A stretch of 64,000 nucleotides of DNA, taken from assembly GCA_020845895.1 (NCBI GenBank), contig JADLEX010000053.1:62001-126000 (forward strand), read 5' to 3'. The notes beneath the pieces are model-generated. The model was not told the DNA's origin, ran no database searches, and saw only the letters and a list, made by a program, of their open reading frames with translations. Each line of letters starts with the position of its first letter. The stretch's first letter is position 1. The position numbers and the translations under genes are program-made. Below, piece by piece: positions 45,525 to 53,548 of this stretch. This stretch comes from Deltaproteobacteria bacterium (GTDB lineage Bacteria; Lernaellota; Lernaellaia; JACKCT01).

Positions 45525-46052
45525 ATGCCTCTCCCCGATGGATTTTTTCTATATCTGGGCCGCCAACGCATCGCGGGACGCGTTCGGGAACTGGCCCGCC
45601 TGATCGCGCGGGATTCCGATCCCGAACGGCTGATCGTCGTCGGCATCCTGCAGGGTGCCGCGCCGTTTTGCGCCGATCTCGCGCGCGAGTTGGACGGGCG
45701 GGTTCGATACGATTTCCTCCGTCTCGCCAGTTACGGCGACGAAACCACGTCCAGCGGGCGGGTGCGACTGGTGCATGATCGACAGACGGATGTCGAAAAT
45801 CAAGACGTGATCCTGGTCGACGACATCTTCGACACGGGATTGACGCTGCGATTCGCGACCGACCATCTGGGTTCTCACGGCGCGCGGAGCGTACGCGCGG
45901 TGACGCTGCTCGCCAAGGGGCATGGGAGTCCGGACCACTTCCGCGCCCACTGGATCGGGTTCGATGTGCCGCAGGGGTACTACATGGGATACGGCCTCGA
46001 TTTCGCAGGACGATACCGGGGATTGCCGGACATCTACCGAAGGGAGCCGTGA
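45525..46052 (+). CDS. hpt: Hypoxanthine phosphoribosyltransferase
   Basis: A 175-residue purine-salvage enzyme. The PRPP-binding loop VILVDDIFDTGLT is at about 95-107. GILQGAAPFCADL near residues 40-52 and the base-contacting end GYGLDFAGRYRGLPDIY match the HGPRT family. It converts hypoxanthine (and probably guanine) to IMP/GMP with PRPP in the cytosol. GGAAG precedes ATG 45525. Its stop overlaps the next start by one base (TGATG), so a purine-salvage gene leads the sugar operon; the functional link is unclear. Confidence 0.92.
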   Translation: MPLPDGFFLYLGRQRIAGRVRELARLIARDSDPERLIVVGILQGAAPFCADLARELDGRVRYDFLRLASYGDETTSSGRVRLVHDRQTDVENQDVILVDDIFDTGLTLRFATDHLGSHGARSVRAVTLLAKGHGSPDHFRAHWIGFDVPQGYYMGYGLDFAGRYRGLPDIYRREP

Positions 46053-47014
46053 TGACACGCCCGCTCTCCGTCACCGTGGCGGCAGTCGACCTGGGCGGTA
46101 CCGCCATCAAGGCCGGGCTCTTCGACGGTCACGGCCATGCGCTCGCCGAAAAGCGCGTGCCCACCGGCGACGACCTGCGCGCGGAAGCGATCGCCGACGC
46201 CATCGTGAGCGTCGTCCGCGACGTTTGCGGCACGCACGCGACCGCCGGCCTCGGGATCGGAGTGCCGGGAGGCGTCTACGCCGACGGCCGCACGGTCAGC
46301 CAGGCGCCGCAGTTTCCGTTGTGGAAAGACGTCGATCTCGCGTCGATGTTGGAGGAACGCCTCGCCTGCCCCGTCGCCCTCGACAACGACGCCAATCTCG
46401 CCGCGCTCGGCGAATCGTGGCTCGGCGCGGGGCGCGGCGTGCAGAATCTGGCCATGTACACGCTCGGAACGGGAATCGGCGGCGGGTTGATCCTTGCCGG
46501 GCGCGTATGGCGCGGTGCGTGGGGAATGGCGGGTGAGCTCGGCCACGTGACGATCGATCGCGACGGACCGCTTTGCGGATGCGGAAACCGCGGGTGCCTG
46601 GAATCGCAGGCCAACCTCAAGGCGGTCGTCGCACGCGGCGAAGACGCGTTGAATCACGGTCGATCCCCGATTTTGCGAGAAATCTCACGCGATCGACTTG
46701 ACCCTGTCACACCCGAGGCGATATACGACGCCGCGACGAGGGGATGTGCGACCTGCCGGGAGATTTTCGAGGATGTCGGAAGCTTTCTGGGCATCGCCGC
46801 GGCCGGGCTCCTCAACGTGCTCAACGTGGAGACGATCCTCGTGGGCGGCGGCATGAGCGGGGCCTGGGAGTTCATCGAGGATTCCCTGCGTCGCGAGATC
46901 CGCTCGCGGGCCTTTCGCGTCCCGGCCGAGATGGTCGTCGTCCGGCGGGCGGAGCTCGGCAATCGGGCCGGGCTGGTCGGCGCGGCGCGCATGGCGCTTC
47001 TCGACACCGCCTGA
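46052..47014 (+). CDS. ROK-family glucokinase
   Basis: A 320-residue sugar kinase. ATG 46052 is 5 nt after AGGGAG; the in-frame GTG at 46049 lies too close to that site. The ATP-binding VDLGGTAIKAGLF is near residues 10-22, DNDANLAALGES holds the catalytic Asp near 112, and GELGHVTID with the zinc site CGCGNRGC at about 174-181 gives the ROK signature. It phosphorylates glucose, or a related hexose or N-acetyl sugar, with ATP. The context of glgC and GH57 supports glucose. Coupled to hpt (1-nt overlap). Confidence 0.9.
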   Translation: MTRPLSVTVAAVDLGGTAIKAGLFDGHGHALAEKRVPTGDDLRAEAIADAIVSVVRDVCGTHATAGLGIGVPGGVYADGRTVSQAPQFPLWKDVDLASMLEERLACPVALDNDANLAALGESWLGAGRGVQNLAMYTLGTGIGGGLILAGRVWRGAWGMAGELGHVTIDRDGPLCGCGNRGCLESQANLKAVVARGEDALNHGRSPILREISRDRLDPVTPEAIYDAATRGCATCREIFEDVGSFLGIAAAGLLNVLNVETILVGGGMSGAWEFIEDSLRREIRSRAFRVPAEMVVVRRAELGNRAGLVGAARMALLDTA

Positions 47015-47038
47015 TTTTCAAAAACAAGGAGGCTTTCC

Positions 47039-48289
47039 GTGAACTCGCCCGTTCTGAACACCGCGGATATCCTGACGATGATCCTCGCCGGCGGAGAAGG
47101 CAGGCGGCTCTATCCCCTGACGGCGGAGCGCGCCAAGCCCGCCGTGCCTTTTGGCGGTCGCTACCGCATCATCGATTTTGTGCTGTCGAATTTCGTCAAC
47201 TCGGGCTTCTACCGCATCAAGGTGCTCACGCAGTACAAGTCCGACTCGCTCAACAAGCACCTCTCGCGCGGATGGAACCTCTCGACCATGGTCGGTCACT
47301 ACGTCGAGGCGGTGCCCCCGCAGCAGCGCATGGGTCCCGACTGGTTCAAGGGCTCGGCCGACGCGATCTACCAGAACATGAACCTCATCACGGATGAACG
47401 CCCGAAAATCGTGTGCGTGTTCGGCGCGGACCACATCTTCAAAATGGACGTTCGCCAGATGGTGCTGGTCCACCTCGCGATGCAGTCGGCGTGCACGATC
47501 GCGGCGATCCCCGTGCCGGTCGAGGAAGCGCGGTCCTTCGGCGTCATCGAGGTCGACGAAGACTGGAAGGTCGTGGGGTTTCAGGAAAAGCCGACGAAGC
47601 CCCGCGAGATCCCCGATCGCCCCGGCTGGGCGCTGGCCAGCATGGGCAACTACATTTTCGACATCGACCCGCTCGTGGACGTGCTCAAGCGCGACGCGAA
47701 GCGCGCCGACTCCAAGCACGACTTCGGCCAGGACATCCTGCCGACGCTTATGACCGAAGGGCGAATGTACGCCTACGACTTTTCGAAGAATCGCGTCCCC
47801 GGCATGCACGACCGCGAGGTCGGCTACTGGCGCGACGTGGGGGACCTCGACGCCTACTTCGCCGCGAACATGGACCTGGTTTCGGTCACGCCCGTGATCG
47901 ACATCCACAATCAGGCGTGGCCGATCCACACCTTCGCGCATCCCGCCGCGCCCGCCAAATTCGTTTTCGCCGACGACGAGCACAAGCGCATGGGCGTGGC
48001 GACCGACTCGCTCGTGAGCGAGGGGTGTATCGTCTCCGGCGGACGGCTCAATCGATGCGTGCTGTCGCGCTTTGTGCGCGTGAATTCCTATTCCAAGGTC
48101 GAGCACTCCATCTTGCTCGACGAGGTGGTGATCGGCCGCCATGCGCAAGTGCGAAACGCGATCATCGACAAACACGCGCACATCAAACCGGGGGCGAAAA
48201 TCGGATTCGACGACGCGGCCGACCGGGCCCGCTTCCACGTGACAAAAAAGGGCATCATCGTGGTTCCCAAAGGCGCCGTGGTCGACTAA
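47039..48289 (+). CDS. glgC: Glucose-1-phosphate adenylyltransferase
   Basis: A 416-residue ADP-glucose pyrophosphorylase, the first committed step of glycogen synthesis. GTG 47039 has the excellent site AAGGAGG (47027-47032). The opening LAGGEGRRLYPLTAERAKPA, then RIIDFVLSNFVNSG, is the catalytic signature. AKVFGAD-type metal region appears as VCVFGADHIFKMD, and FQEKPTKPREIP carries the substrate lysine. The C-terminal 120 residues are a left-handed beta-helix domain (VSEGCIVSGG, VNSYSKVEHSIL). It lies 24 bp after the glucokinase. No glgA or glgB is in the window. Confidence 0.93.
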   Translation: MNSPVLNTADILTMILAGGEGRRLYPLTAERAKPAVPFGGRYRIIDFVLSNFVNSGFYRIKVLTQYKSDSLNKHLSRGWNLSTMVGHYVEAVPPQQRMGPDWFKGSADAIYQNMNLITDERPKIVCVFGADHIFKMDVRQMVLVHLAMQSACTIAAIPVPVEEARSFGVIEVDEDWKVVGFQEKPTKPREIPDRPGWALASMGNYIFDIDPLVDVLKRDAKRADSKHDFGQDILPTLMTEGRMYAYDFSKNRVPGMHDREVGYWRDVGDLDAYFAANMDLVSVTPVIDIHNQAWPIHTFAHPAAPAKFVFADDEHKRMGVATDSLVSEGCIVSGGRLNRCVLSRFVRVNSYSKVEHSILLDEVVIGRHAQVRNAIIDKHAHIKPGAKIGFDDAADRARFHVTKKGIIVVPKGAVVD

Positions 48290-48313
48290 AGATCGTCGAA
48301 CTGACCGAATACG

Positions 48314-48343
48314 TGGCCGCGTCATTGACAACTGGCGCGGCCA
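48314..48343 (+). repeat. 8-bp palindrome arms flanking a -35 element
   Basis: TGGCCGCG (48314-48321) and CGCGGCCA (48336-48343), with the TTGACA -35 box of the GH57 promoter in the 14-nt centre. It has no T-run, so a repressor operator is more likely than a terminator. Confidence 0.45.
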
Positions 48344-48353
48344 TGCCCTAAAT
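48325..48353 (+). promoter_or_regulatory. Promoter of the GH57/galT operon
   Basis: TTGACA (48325-48330, perfect), 17-bp spacer, CTAAAT (48348-48353). The start is expected near 48360, 28 nt before GTG 48388. The -35 box lies between palindrome arms at 48314-48343. Confidence 0.5.
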
Positions 48354-48387
48354 CCGCGCCGATTTCCCGAGCCAGGAGCCGTCAGGC

Positions 48388-50517
48388 GTGAAAAACCCCG
48401 TCACCTTCTGCATCGCGCTGCACAATCACCAACCCGTGGGGAACTTTGGTCACGTCTTCGACGACGCGTTCCGAAAGAGCTATGCGCCGTTTCTCGACGT
48501 CTTGCACAACCATCCGACCGTCCGCGTCTCGCTGCACACCTCCGGACCCCTGCTCGATTGGATGGAAGAGCATCAGCCCGGCTACCTCAAGCGACTCAAG
48601 TCTTTCGTCGATGCCGGGCGCGTCGAAATTCTCGGCGGCGGATACTACGAGCCGATCCTCACGATCATTCCCCGGCGCGACGCGGCGATGCAGATCGAGA
48701 CCATGGCCGCGTTCGTGAAACGCCGCTTCGGTCGCCGCCCTCGCGGAATCTGGCTCACCGAGCGCATCTGGGAACCGGGGCTGCCCGAACTGCTCGCGGA
48801 AAACGGCGTGGAATACACCCTGCTCGACGAGAGTCACTTCCGCGCATCCGGTGTCGAGCCCGACGCGATGATCGGCCACTACGTCGCCGAAAAACTCGGC
48901 CGCGCGGTGCACATCTTTCCGATCCGCAAGGACCTGCGTTACGCGATTCCCTTCGCCGAACCGGAAAAGACGGTCGAGATCCTGAAAAAGCTGGGCGAGG
49001 CGTCACCCGGAACGTGCGTAACCTACGGCGACGACGGCGAGAAATTCGGACTGTGGCCGAACACCTACGACTGGGTTTACGAACGCAGGTGGCTCGAAAA
49101 ATTCTTCGACGAACTCGCGAAAAACTCCGATTGGCTGACGACGGCCACGCTGTCCGAGGCGTTCGACCGCGTGCCCGCCACGGGACGCTCTTACCTGCCC
49201 GCGACCAGCTATCACGAAATGACCCAGTGGGCGCTGCCGACCGAGGCCGGCGTCGCGCTGGAGAAGCTCGGTGAGGATCTGAAAAAACGCGGTGAGTGGG
49301 AGCAGTCGGAGCGCTTTATCCGCGGCGGATTCTGGGACAACTTCCTGGTGAAATACGACGAGGCGAACAGGCTTCACAAGCGCATGTTGCGCGTGTCCGA
49401 AAAAATCGCTCGTTGCCCGGAGGTCAGCGCTCACACGACGCTTGCGATGACGGCCCTGATGAAGGGCCAGTGCAACTGCGCCTACTGGCACGGCCTCTTC
49501 GGCGGACTGTATCTCAATTATCTGCGCGACGCCGTCACGCGCCATCTGGCGCAGGCCGAAAGCTACGCCGACCTCATGCTCCACGGCGGCGCTTCGAGCG
49601 CGCGGGTCGAGGTCGCCGACTTCGATCTCGACGGTCGCCACGACGTGATTCTCGAATCGCCGTGGTATCGCGCCGTCGTCAATCCGGCGGACGGCGGCAC
49701 GCTCGCCGATCTCGTGCTCGTCCGACAGAATTTCGACATCACGAACGTCATGACGCGTCGCCGCGAGATTTATCACGAGCGCGTGCGGCAGGCTTCGACC
49801 GCGACGAGCGACGGCGTCGTCAGTGCGCACGACATGATTGTCGCGAAGGAAACCGGCCTCGAAGAATATCTGCGTTACGACCGGCACACCCGCGTGGCGT
49901 TTCGCGACCGTGCGTTCGCCGAGATTCCGACTCTGGACCAGACGCTTTCGGACATCCCGGAATCCGTCGGTCGCCTCGCCGATCTGCGCTATGACTTTTC
50001 CGTCGGCCCGGACTCGGATTCGCCCCGCGCGCGCCTCGTCGCCTCGACCGAAATCTCGGCGGACGGCGTCGCCGCGCCGATCCGCATCGAAAAGGAATTT
50101 CGCGTCGCGGCCGACACGCCCGAGTTCGTTGTGAGCTATCGCTGGACGAATACCGGCGCGACGGCGGTGCGTTTCGTGTGGGCCGCGGAGATGAATTTTA
50201 CGCTGCTCGCCGCGGACGCTTCCGACCGATGGGTCACCGTCAACGGGCTGCGTCACTCGCCGCGCGAATCGTTTGACGCAACGACGTCGCTGGTCGCGCT
50301 TCACGACGGCTGGCAGGACTTCACCATGTCCGTGGATCTCGACTCGAAGGCCACGCTTCGACAGTACCCGATCGAGACCGTCTCCCAGTCGGAGGCCGGA
50401 TTCGAGCGGACGTATCAGGGCACCTGCCTCGTCGTTTATCTAACCGTGGCGATCGAACCGGGTCGCGCCGCGACCGCGTCCTTCACGTTCACGGTTCTCA
50501 CCGGCGCGAAGGACTGA
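48388..50517 (+). CDS. GH57 4-alpha-glucanotransferase / alpha-amylase
   Basis: A 709-residue glycoside hydrolase family 57 protein. It starts FCIALHNHQPVGNFG with the conserved His-His pair. The nucleophile is E125 in IWLTERIWEP and the acid/base D215 in YGDDGEKFG. Residues 300-410 form the helical DUF1925-like domain (WALPTEAGVA, NCAYWHGLFGG). The last 280 residues are a beta-rich DUF1926-like domain (WAAEMNFTLLAAD). Members transfer or hydrolyse alpha-1,4-glucan segments. No signal peptide is seen, so it acts on intracellular glycogen. GTG 48388 follows AGGAG. Galactose-1-phosphate uridylyltransferase starts 4 bp later. Confidence 0.9.
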   Translation: MKNPVTFCIALHNHQPVGNFGHVFDDAFRKSYAPFLDVLHNHPTVRVSLHTSGPLLDWMEEHQPGYLKRLKSFVDAGRVEILGGGYYEPILTIIPRRDAAMQIETMAAFVKRRFGRRPRGIWLTERIWEPGLPELLAENGVEYTLLDESHFRASGVEPDAMIGHYVAEKLGRAVHIFPIRKDLRYAIPFAEPEKTVEILKKLGEASPGTCVTYGDDGEKFGLWPNTYDWVYERRWLEKFFDELAKNSDWLTTATLSEAFDRVPATGRSYLPATSYHEMTQWALPTEAGVALEKLGEDLKKRGEWEQSERFIRGGFWDNFLVKYDEANRLHKRMLRVSEKIARCPEVSAHTTLAMTALMKGQCNCAYWHGLFGGLYLNYLRDAVTRHLAQAESYADLMLHGGASSARVEVADFDLDGRHDVILESPWYRAVVNPADGGTLADLVLVRQNFDITNVMTRRREIYHERVRQASTATSDGVVSAHDMIVAKETGLEEYLRYDRHTRVAFRDRAFAEIPTLDQTLSDIPESVGRLADLRYDFSVGPDSDSPRARLVASTEISADGVAAPIRIEKEFRVAADTPEFVVSYRWTNTGATAVRFVWAAEMNFTLLAADASDRWVTVNGLRHSPRESFDATTSLVALHDGWQDFTMSVDLDSKATLRQYPIETVSQSEAGFERTYQGTCLVVYLTVAIEPGRAATASFTFTVLTGAKD

Positions 50518-50521
50518 GAAC

Positions 50522-51535
50522 GTGAGCGAGGCGCACCCGGCACGCGCCCAGATCCGCGTCGATCCTTTCGGCGGACATCGCGTCATCCTCGCTCCCGACC
50601 GGGCCAATCGACCATACGCCTACGCAAAGCCCGAGCCGCCGGTCGAGCGCGGCGAATGTCCGTTCTGCCCCGGCAAGGAACACGAAACGCCGCCGGAAAT
50701 CTTCGCACTTCGCGACAACGCGCCGAATACACCCGGGTGGCGTTCGCGGGTCGTTCCGAACAAGTTCCCCGCCCTCAATCACGCGGCCGACATCACGGAA
50801 GTGGGCGCGCCGTGGGAACACATCGAGCCGGGCCTCGGCGCGCACGAGGTGCTGATCGAGCACTCCGACCATCATTGGACTTGGGCGGATGCGAGCGTTG
50901 AGGAAGCCCTGCGGGTGCTGACGATCCTGAGAGACCGCGCCGCCGCCCACGCGCACGAGGTGCGATGGGCGTACACGCAGATCTTTCGCAACGAGGGCCG
51001 TGAAGCGGGCGCGTCGCTCGCCCACCCGCACACGCAGATTCTGTCGCTGCCCTTTGTCCCGCTTCCGCTCGTGCGGGAAACCGAAAGTTTCGGTGCACAC
51101 CACGCGACAACGGGGCGCTGCCTGATGTGCGACGTGATCGAACGTGAGCGCGAATCGGGCGTGCGTTGGATCACCGGCGTTGGGTGCGCAGCGGCGTTTG
51201 CGCCCTTCGCGCCGCGTTTCGCCTACGAAACGTGGATTGCGCCGACGGTTCACGAAGCGCGGTTCGAAGAGTCGGCGGATGAGGTGCTCGCGGATGCCGC
51301 CCAAATCCTGATCGACCTGGCGCGGCGGATGCGCCGCGTGCTCTGGCGATTTGATCACAACTGGGTCTTGCACACGCAACCCCAAAATCCTTTACTGCCG
51401 GGCGTGTTTCACTGGCACATCGAATGGACGACGCGCCTCGGGCGCGCCGCGGGATTCGAGCGGGCGACCGACACGTACATCAACTCCGTGCCGCCCGAGG
51501 TCGCCGCCGCATCGCTACGCGCGGCGGGAGCGTGA
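50522..51535 (+). CDS. galT: Galactose-1-phosphate uridylyltransferase
   Basis: A 337-residue HIT-superfamily enzyme of the Leloir pathway, exchanging UMP between UDP-glucose and galactose-1-phosphate. GTG 50522 opens MSEAHPARAQIRVDPFGG. Zinc ligands are in GECPFCPGKEHE. The active-site HxH lies in SLAHPHTQILSLP near residues 167-170. FHWHIEW near the C-terminus is the second zinc/uridine site. galE and galK are not in the window, so it may link UDP-sugars to the glycan genes rather than serve galactose catabolism. Only 4 bp from GH57 and 9 bp from fabH. Confidence 0.9.
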   Translation: MSEAHPARAQIRVDPFGGHRVILAPDRANRPYAYAKPEPPVERGECPFCPGKEHETPPEIFALRDNAPNTPGWRSRVVPNKFPALNHAADITEVGAPWEHIEPGLGAHEVLIEHSDHHWTWADASVEEALRVLTILRDRAAAHAHEVRWAYTQIFRNEGREAGASLAHPHTQILSLPFVPLPLVRETESFGAHHATTGRCLMCDVIERERESGVRWITGVGCAAAFAPFAPRFAYETWIAPTVHEARFEESADEVLADAAQILIDLARRMRRVLWRFDHNWVLHTQPQNPLLPGVFHWHIEWTTRLGRAAGFERATDTYINSVPPEVAAASLRAAGA

Positions 51536-51544
51536 GGTGAAGAT

Positions 51545-52546
51545 ATGAGTGTTTGCTCGAAGGTCACCGGCGTCGGGTTTTTTGTGCCCGACCGAGTAGT
51601 CACGAACGACGACTTGTCGGCGTTGATCGACACCAGCGACGAGTGGATCCATCAGCGCACGGGCATCAGAGCGCGCCGCCATGCGCCGGACGGCATGACG
51701 AACGTCGACATGGCCGAGATCGCCGCGAAGCACGCGATGGACGAGGCGGGTATCGGCCCGGGCGACATCGACCTGCTGATCGCGGCGACGCTTTCGCCCG
51801 ACTACTCGTTTCCCAGCAACGCACCGTTCATCCAGCGGCGGCTCGGCCTCGGGCCGGTGGCGGCCATCGACGTGCGCAACCAGTGCACCGGATTCCTCTA
51901 CAGCATCGCGGTCGCCGATGCGTACATCCGAACCGGACGGGCACGCCGAGTGCTCGTGATCGGCTCGGAGGTCCAGAGCGGCGGCCTCGACTTCGACTCG
52001 CGATCGCGCGACATCGCGGTCATCTTCGGCGACGGCGCGGGCGCGTTCGTGATGGAGGCGGGCGATTCGTCCGATGGCAAGGGCGTACTGGCGGTGGCGC
52101 TGCACGGCGACGGCACGCACGCCGAAGACCTTTGGACGGATGCCGAACGCAGCTACGAGCATCCGCGCCTCACGATGGAGATGTACGAGTCGGGCGCGGT
52201 GTGGCCGAAGATGCGCGGACGCGCCGTGTTCATCCAGGCGGTCAAGGAACTGCCCGAGATCATCAACGAGGTGCTCGCGAAGACCGGCCACGCGCTCGAC
52301 GACGTGGACTGCTTTGCGTTTCATCAGGCGAATCTGCGCATCAACCAGTGGGTCGGCTCGTCGATGAACATTCCCGACGAGAAGATCTTCAACAACATCG
52401 AGCGTTACGGAAACACCACGGCCGCGACGATTCCCGGCGTGATTTTCGAGGCCCGCGCTTCCGGCCTGATCCACGACGGGTCGCTGGTCGTCGCGGCGGC
52501 GTTCGGCGCGGGGTTCACCTCCGCGGCCATTACGATTCGATTCTGA
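51545..52546 (+). CDS. fabH: Beta-ketoacyl-ACP synthase III
   Basis: A 333-residue thiolase-fold enzyme that condenses acetyl-CoA with malonyl-ACP to start fatty-acid synthesis. The complete Cys-His-Asn triad is present: C114 in RNQCTGFLY, H260 in AFHQANLRIN and N290 in ERYGNTTAATIP. GDGAGAFVM and the closing AAFGAGFTSAAITIRF fit FabH. It lies 9 bp after galT and 12 bp before a degenerate paralogue. Because it sits at the end of a sugar operon instead of the usual plsX-fabH-fabD cluster, it may be a secondary copy for a special acyl chain (inference). Confidence 0.9.
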   Translation: MSVCSKVTGVGFFVPDRVVTNDDLSALIDTSDEWIHQRTGIRARRHAPDGMTNVDMAEIAAKHAMDEAGIGPGDIDLLIAATLSPDYSFPSNAPFIQRRLGLGPVAAIDVRNQCTGFLYSIAVADAYIRTGRARRVLVIGSEVQSGGLDFDSRSRDIAVIFGDGAGAFVMEAGDSSDGKGVLAVALHGDGTHAEDLWTDAERSYEHPRLTMEMYESGAVWPKMRGRAVFIQAVKELPEIINEVLAKTGHALDDVDCFAFHQANLRINQWVGSSMNIPDEKIFNNIERYGNTTAATIPGVIFEARASGLIHDGSLVVAAAFGAGFTSAAITIRF

Positions 52547-52558
52547 TCGGGGCACAAA

Positions 52559-53548
52559 ATGGGCGTGAAGATTCTTTCCGTGGCGAGCGCGTTGCCGCGG
52601 CGTCGCGTGGACAATTCCGAACTCGCGACAACCCTTGGGATCGGCGAGGCGGCCCTCGCATCGCGCGTCGGCACCACGGAGCGGCGCTACGTCGGCGGAG
52701 AAGAGACCGGCGCGAAGCTCCTGGCGTCCGCGTCCGATGACGCGCTCGCTCAGGCGGGACGCACGCGTGAGCAGGTCCGCGCGATCGTGGCCTCGACCGT
52801 CACGCCAGACCACCAGTTTCCGGGCAACGCCGCGTTCCTGCAGAAGGAGTGGGCGCTGCCCGGCGCGGCGATCCTCGATGCGCGCGCGTGCGATGGCGGC
52901 TTCCTGCACTCGCTCGATGTCGCGCGGACCTTCATCGACGCGGGCACCTTCGATCTCGTCCTGCTCGCGGCGTGCGACCTGTTCTCGACCTACCTGCGGC
53001 ACGAGCCCGAGGGTGCGTCCGTCACGCCGTGGTTCGGCGACGGCGCGGCCGCGTGCGTGCTGGCGCCTTGCGACGACGACTCCGGAATCCTCGCGCTGGA
53101 GGTCGGGAACGATCCCGCGCACGTCGAGGCGTTTTGGGCGAAGGATCCCGGGACATACGTGCGCCCGCGCATGACGCGCGAAACCATCGAAAAGGGTCTG
53201 TGGCATTTCACCATCGACATGGATGCGATGGCGCGCGAGACCGCCCGCCTGATGCCCGCTATTTGCCGCCGCGCCTTGGAAAAAGCCGGGGTGGGAGCGA
53301 GCGACGTGTCGATCTTTATCGGGTCCGCGATCCTGCCCGAGTGGGGCGCGGCGGTCGCCGACGAACTCGGCATCCCGCGCGAGCGCGTCCCCGCCACGCA
53401 CGACAGCATCGGCTATTGCGGAACGGCGCTCCTGCCGATCAACATCGAGCGCGCGCTCCGGTCCGGACGGGTGAAGAGCGGCGACGTGATCCTCGCCGCG
53501 TCGGTCGGCGCGGGGATCGCGTTCGGGGCGATGGTCTATCGCGTGTGA
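52559..53548 (+). CDS. KAS III-like protein with incomplete catalytic triad
   Basis: A 329-residue thiolase-fold paralogue of the preceding fabH. The nucleophilic cysteine is kept (C111 in DARACDGGFLHS). By alignment with the neighbour, the His is replaced by Ser (S256 in IFIGSAILPEW) and the Asn by Tyr (Y286 in DSIGYCGTALLP). GDGAAACVLAP and the end AASVGAGIAFGAMVYRV keep the fold. Without the His/Asn pair, decarboxylative condensation is unlikely; acyl transfer through Cys111, or a partner role to the active FabH, is possible. Start ATG 52559 has only a weak G-rich site, consistent with coupling to fabH. Confidence 0.85.
   Translation: MGVKILSVASALPRRRVDNSELATTLGIGEAALASRVGTTERRYVGGEETGAKLLASASDDALAQAGRTREQVRAIVASTVTPDHQFPGNAAFLQKEWALPGAAILDARACDGGFLHSLDVARTFIDAGTFDLVLLAACDLFSTYLRHEPEGASVTPWFGDGAAACVLAPCDDDSGILALEVGNDPAHVEAFWAKDPGTYVRPRMTRETIEKGLWHFTIDMDAMARETARLMPAICRRALEKAGVGASDVSIFIGSAILPEWGAAVADELGIPRERVPATHDSIGYCGTALLPINIERALRSGRVKSGDVILAASVGAGIAFGAMVYRV

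Follow-up and report, generated by a model that had tools for sequence, protein, structure and literature searches.

What does a KAS III paralogue do when it has lost its catalytic residues and is encoded immediately behind an intact copy of FabH? The question is raised by a gene, here called par, in the 64,000-nucleotide stretch of DNA that we analysed (the window), which lies on contig C53 of a 4.98 Mb genome (G000) that is 99.5% complete. Our answer is that par probably serves the FabH encoded next to it as a non-catalytic subunit with a structural or regulatory role, a reading to which we would give a probability of roughly 60%. The dead twin is real and lineage-specific, and the evidence favours a silent partner of FabH and disfavours an acyl-transferring enzyme. 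Seven genomes of the phylum were sampled for comparison: the host and two further members of its family (f1: G000, G001 and G002), one member of family f2 (G003) and three of the sister family f3 (G004, G005 and G006).

A KAS III paralogue in tandem with fabH

The par frame is open, full-length and directly 3' of an intact fabH (Table 1). Both proteins match PF08545 and PF08541 of Pfam over cut-off, they are 29% identical to each other, and at an E-value of 0.001 the ACP_syn_III domains are the only Pfam matches of par. Its best matches among curated models are KAS III models too, though below their cut-offs: 163.8 bits against 292.1 for TIGR00747 and 167.9 against 249 for NF006829.

Table 1. 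Coordinates of par, fabH and associated features in the window
Feature	Coordinates	Strand	Basis or remark
par, catalytically dead KAS III paralogue, 329 aa	52559..53548	+	ORF call; PF08545 and PF08541 over cut-off; predicted fold
fabH, intact, 333 aa, C114/H260/N290	51545..52546	+	TIGR00747, 304.9 bits against a cut-off of 292.1
Spacer of 12 bases, from the TGA stop of fabH to the ATG of par	52547..52558	+	Frames in register
galT-like gene	50522..51535	+	94.3 and 66.2 bits, both below NCBIfam cut-offs; kept 5' of fabH in f1 and f3
par residues 76-97, with Phe87 and helix 90-97	52784..52849	+	22 residues identical between window and G001
par Cys111-Asp112	52889..52894	+	Asp112 at the FabH nucleophile position, Cys111 the preceding residue
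par Ser256	53324..53326	+	Aligned with the catalytic His; G001 and G002 have Gly here
par Tyr286	53414..53416	+	Aligned with the catalytic Asn; all three orthologues have Tyr here

An AlphaFold2 model of par, built on a 15-row alignment (pLDDT 88.0, pTM 0.89), matches B. subtilis FabHA (8vd9; Z 45.0, 1.5 A over 309 residues) and Aquifex FabH (2ebd; Z 44.6, 1.5 A over 309 residues). The best 50 of 1000 chains in this structure comparison also include PqsBC entries, at Z 38.9 (6et3_C) and 38.8 (6et0_A, PqsC). With both Pfam domains over cut-off and this predicted fold, par belongs among proteins of the KAS III fold, and the model, which matches FabH structures from end to end, agrees with the earlier note in predicting that the fold is sound. 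A model of the read-through fabH-par chain gave a pLDDT of 58.1 and a pTM of 0.51, on an alignment of four rows only, values too low to speak for or against pairing.

Loss of the catalytic residues and of the CoA clamp

The earlier note had described par as a paralogue that kept the catalytic Cys and lost His and Asn beside an intact FabH, and had proposed a pairwise alignment of the two proteins as a check. The alignment confirms C114, H260 and N290 in the neighbouring FabH and places Ser256 and Tyr286 of par at the His and Asn positions, as claimed, but it moves Cys111 off the nucleophile position. In this region, FabH reads D-V-R-N-Q-C-T-G-F-L and par reads D-A-R-A-C-D-G-G-F-L, with no indel, and it is Asp112, not Cys111, that aligns with FabH Cys114, Cys111 being aligned with Gln113. 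Because the alignment is gapless and its near-invariant anchors, an Asp (FabH 109, par 107) and a Gly (FabH 116, par 114), are equally spaced on both sides, each of them being present in at least 29 of 31 KAS III rows, Cys111 falls one residue before the nucleophile position.

All three catalytic residues are lost in par (C to D, H to S and N to Y): where FabH/KAS III enzymes have Cys-His-Asn, par has D112, S256 and Y286. The C-H-N set is kept in every one of the 31 other KAS III rows of a 33-row alignment, which comprise the three f1 FabHs and 28 proteins from fetched loci, a part of the KAS III places listed. The triad positions are D-S-Y in the window par, D-G-Y in that of G001 and D/G/Y in the readable pieces of that of G002, and since they are replaced in all three, this state has been inherited and is not a single mutation.

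The divergence of par also reaches residues expected to hold CoA. Both complete par proteins depart from the other KAS III proteins at 21 of the columns that at least 29 of the 31 rows share; the HQAN motif is among these, as are Trp34, which is Ala32 in par, and Arg155, which is Ala153. In FabH of E. coli and Y. pestis, the CoA adenine stacks between Trp32 and Arg151 (PMC4606726). By our reading of the alignment, Trp34 and Arg155 of FabH would be the equivalents of these two residues. The clamp Trp position is Ala in both complete par orthologues, while the equivalent of Arg151 depends on the alignment, being Ala153 in par, or Glu151 with a two-residue offset of the kind seen for Arg153; neither candidate position is Arg in the par of the window or of G001.

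These losses bear directly on the proposal, also made in the earlier note, that Cys111 accepts an acyl group and hands it over with no decarboxylation step. KAS III-like acyltransferases keep the Cys and lose the residues needed for decarboxylation, and par lacks a Cys at the nucleophile position. The conservation of Cys111 in all three par orthologues would fit such a role, but the nucleophile position is Asp in all three, with Cys111 one residue off, and a protein that has lost both the Trp and the Arg that clamp the CoA adenine is unlikely to carry out CoA-dependent acyl transfer. Transfer through Cys111 is thus not supported, and we consider it very improbable.

Conservation of the cross-dimer face

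The catalytic and CoA side of par has diverged, and its cross-dimer loop is selectively conserved. Between the window and G001, par is 51% identical and FabH 75%, and the longest identical run in par spans 22 residues (76-97), a length reached in 0 of 20000 shuffles; for the FabH pair the longest such run is 16. By homology with FabH dimers, this part of par, with Phe87 and the predicted helix at 90-97, faces the partner subunit. Chain-length preference in E. coli FabH is set by residue 87 (Phe87), and the channel of PqsD has Asp87 of the second monomer in its lining (PMC3734052); the Y. pestis FabH dimer is built from beta5/alpha5 (105-130), plus alpha4 against residues 180-200 of the partner (PMC4606726).

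With alpha4 plus its loop taken as 84-97 and the 180-200 segment as 178-198, limits that we mapped by eye, the interface segments are identical between the window and G001 at 41 of 61 positions in par and 45 of 61 in FabH. The catalytic and CoA-side regions, which we picked after seeing the conservation profile, are identical at only 20 of 79 positions in par versus 61 of 79 in FabH. When the interface segments were slid along par, 19 of 328 slides reached the observed value, a borderline result, and in the sliding control for the difference from FabH 18 of 328 did so. Given the late choice of regions, the limits set by eye and the 19 slides that equal the interface value, the 22-residue run is the sole conservation signal that is strong on its own.

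If par does not pair with FabH, it may instead form a homodimer with a new function (binding of acyl groups or CoA esters, hydrolysis, or regulation) based on the conserved Cys111-Asp112 pair and Tyr286 in a remodelled pocket. The two complete par orthologues share 35 residues that are absent from the corresponding columns of all 31 other rows, among them C111, D112, H117, D140, H216 and Y286, a larger number than one would expect from loss alone, and the predicted fold is intact. A par homodimer would also conserve the dimer face equally, a point against pairing with FabH, and the conserved Cys111-Asp112 pair could give par chemistry of its own, a point against a silent subunit. The poor conservation of the catalytic and CoA regions that we chose is nevertheless the opposite of the pattern expected if a new active site lay there, and a free-standing homodimer is not what the tandem linkage to fabH in all three family genomes suggests. 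We regard a homodimer of this kind as unlikely.

Is par a living gene?

Between the window and G001, par has diverged by 0.40, 0.33 and 0.54 at the three codon positions, and its dN/dS is approximately 0.49, versus 0.26 for FabH (NG86, one pair each). Judged from these comparisons, constraint on par is relaxed but not neutral. A pseudogene or an assembly error in the window copy was considered and rejected, as the frame is open and the gene is conserved in G001; the earlier note had likewise held that this copy is not a pseudogene.

The relaxed constraint could still reflect a functionless duplicate in decay. The higher dN/dS of par would be in keeping with this, as would its longer substitution path than that of FabH (a stem of 2.69 changes per column) and the three frame changes that interrupt par in G002 (L046:6001-6988 and L039). 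In that genome, which is 77% complete, neighbours of par are broken as well, with one frame change in GH57, one in galT and none in fabH; errors in a noisy assembly are likely there, though the par of G002 may be decaying. Against decay of par as a whole stand its open frame in two genera at 51% identity, the invariant 22-residue run, the divergence by codon position and the high-confidence predicted fold, and we find this explanation decidedly improbable.

Genomic setting, distribution and origin

The tandem galT-fabH-par is present in 3 of 3 genomes of family f1. In 3 of 3 genomes of the sister family f3, galT-fabH occurs without par, and in G003 of f2 fabH has a different setting and no adjacent par. 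The arrival of par can accordingly be placed by synteny. The wider gene order, with names assigned via similarity and by eye, is hpt-ROK kinase-glgC-GH57-galT-fabH (45525-52546 in the window), so that a gene for the initiation of fatty-acid synthesis sits 3' of sugar and glycogen genes. The order from hpt to fabH recurs in G000 and G001 of f1 and in G004 and G005 of f3, though in f3 other coding sequence separates glgC from GH57. The stretch read in G002 runs from ROK to fabH, the distance from glgC to GH57 being about 4.5 kb, and in G006 galT-fabH lies on a short contig.

The same linkage could be read as that of a negative regulator, in which dead par poisons FabH dimers or, when co-translated, tunes the amount of active FabH, and the conserved dimer face and lost catalytic residues would suit this role. 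Yet with a spacer of 12 bases to the only FabH-type KAS III found, par would be made whenever FabH is, and we infer that a permanent, co-made inhibitor is less likely than a subunit. Negative regulation is, in our estimate, improbable.

Among the genomes searched, par occurs only in family f1. A profile of two par sequences, run against 386 genomes, scored the three f1 par genes at 669, 665 and 306 bits and everything else at 222 bits or below. The five best matches outside f1 were in G177, G030, G136, G315 and G156: that of G030 has C-H-N, and the other four carry Cys and HQAN, each with a single FGDGA motif within the 3.6 to 4.0 kb fetched. GNTTAA was found in three of these four, the pattern in G136 having fallen on a different stretch. 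A scan of genome contigs with the window par gave no relatives, and one with a two-row par profile gave only G002's own record, both by short-peptide seeding, with which distant relatives can be missed. Viral contigs gave no matches to the par profile and none to A9. In all the data searched, only two intact par sequences were found, a point that weighs against the silent-partner reading.

In the tree, par sits on its long stem among RNQC-type FabHs and not beside the FabH of f1. Constraining par to be sister to f1 FabH was 18.9 log units worse and was not rejected (p-AU 0.063), and constraining it with all seven FabHs of the phylum was 7.6 units worse (p-AU 0.059). Par may have arisen by duplication within the family or by capture from a related FabH.

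The FabH of the pair

In the host genome, PF08541 matches fabH, par and a third gene, which encodes a DpgA-type synthase; in G001 its two matches are fabH and par. A separate second FabH, which would make the pair accessory, was considered and rejected on this basis: the domain gives no other FabH-type KAS III in either genome. As the sole FabH-type KAS III found in these two genomes, the FabH encoded next to par is probably the housekeeping initiator of fatty-acid synthesis. For fabF-like genes, there was one strong match of 426.6 bits, below the cut-off of 493.75, plus a 43-residue match of 23 bits.

The third PF08541 place of the host genome encodes a DpgA-type 3,5-dihydroxyphenylacetyl-CoA synthase (contig C23, L063:534-1610; 455.9 bits, cut-off 425), and a protein of G006 (L068) is similar to it by eye. 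KAS III-like proteins of other types (L034 on contig C9 of G004, and L064-L066) are present in G002, G004, G005 and G006, the best match of L064 being PRK09258, below its cut-off. Several IMG/VR contigs (L047, L054-L057 and L059-L062) encode proteins that resemble FabH along most of their length.

A proposed silent subunit of FabH

We favour the silent-partner reading because it brings together the catalytic loss, the tandem linkage, the conservation of the cross-dimer loop and the precedent of PqsBC. In the mechanism that we propose, par would retain its thiolase fold along with the dimer face and pair with FabH. Its loop with Phe87, together with the helix that follows, would stand in for the loop that a second FabH would extend towards its catalytic partner's active site. 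Each dimer would then contain one working Cys-His-Asn site, in FabH, and one dead site, in par, and the likely effect would be to control which primer is chosen or how active FabH is. A silent partner had been put forward in the earlier note, and the circumstantial case for it is now made up of linkage in 3 of 3 genomes, a FabH with no other of its type found in G000 and G001, the conserved loop and PqsBC; the complex itself, along with the loop donation and the effect on activity or specificity, is what we infer from these.

Several known systems resemble this arrangement in part. The earlier note had likened par to the chain-length factor (KS-beta) of type II PKS, which is a dead ketosynthase paralogue encoded in tandem with a live one and paired with it. 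Chain-length factors belong to the KAS I/II (ketoacyl-synt) family, however, and par, with ACP_syn_III domains only, does not. AsuC3 and AsuC4 are encoded by tandem KAS III genes. With FabH itself, par shares fold, length and much of the sequence of the cross-dimer loop, but it differs in having lost the catalytic Cys, His and Asn as well as HQAN, and in its scores below curated cut-offs.

The closest precedent, itself within the KAS III fold, is PqsBC of Pseudomonas aeruginosa, a solved heterodimer of a live KAS III-like subunit and one without catalytic residues. PqsB has no catalytic residues and forms with PqsC a pseudo-twofold dimer like the FabH homodimer; a scaffolding role has been proposed for it. 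PqsC, whose third catalytic position is not Asn, makes the quinolone signal from octanoyl-CoA and 2-ABA (PMC4807248). Like PqsB, par has the KAS III fold without the catalytic residues, and a live KAS III gene is its neighbour. The two systems differ in that PqsC is without the Asn, whereas the neighbour of par is a FabH with C-H-N and the only FabH-type KAS III found. When a par profile was run against the PDB, PqsC chains scored about 70 bits, and no chain named PqsB was among the best 60 of 87 matches. Dead paralogues that activate a living partner in a heteromer are also reported from trypanosomatids, where they include the AdoMetDC prozyme and a dead paralogue of deoxyhypusine synthase (PMC5201418, PMC3663545); these differ from par in being other enzymes. 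The matches listed from the open-licence literature showed no dead partner of a housekeeping FabH.

A stronger form of the silent-partner reading is that an obligate FabH-par heterodimer serves as the primary initiation enzyme of one bacterial family, the dead twin shaping its only active site via the cross-dimer loop, as a pseudo-subunit of housekeeping FabH in the manner of a prozyme or of PqsB. We put this forward tentatively, with odds a little short of even. A conserved dead subunit on the lineage's probably sole FabH would add to PqsBC a second KAS III heterodimer, this one in primary metabolism, and offer a clean system for asking what an enzyme gains from a dead half.

The FabHs of f1 have 10 positions fixed differently from those of f2 and f3. 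In a FabH-par heterodimer, the cross-dimer loop of FabH itself would face the dead site and might be free to change, a thought that is suggestive only. The f1 FabHs differ from those of f2 and f3 at Tyr87 and Ser91, both in this loop, and at Gln144 and Ser154. At position 326, another of the 10, the three f1 FabHs have Ser, versus Trp in the 13 other RNQC-type FabHs compared (GFTS for GFTW).
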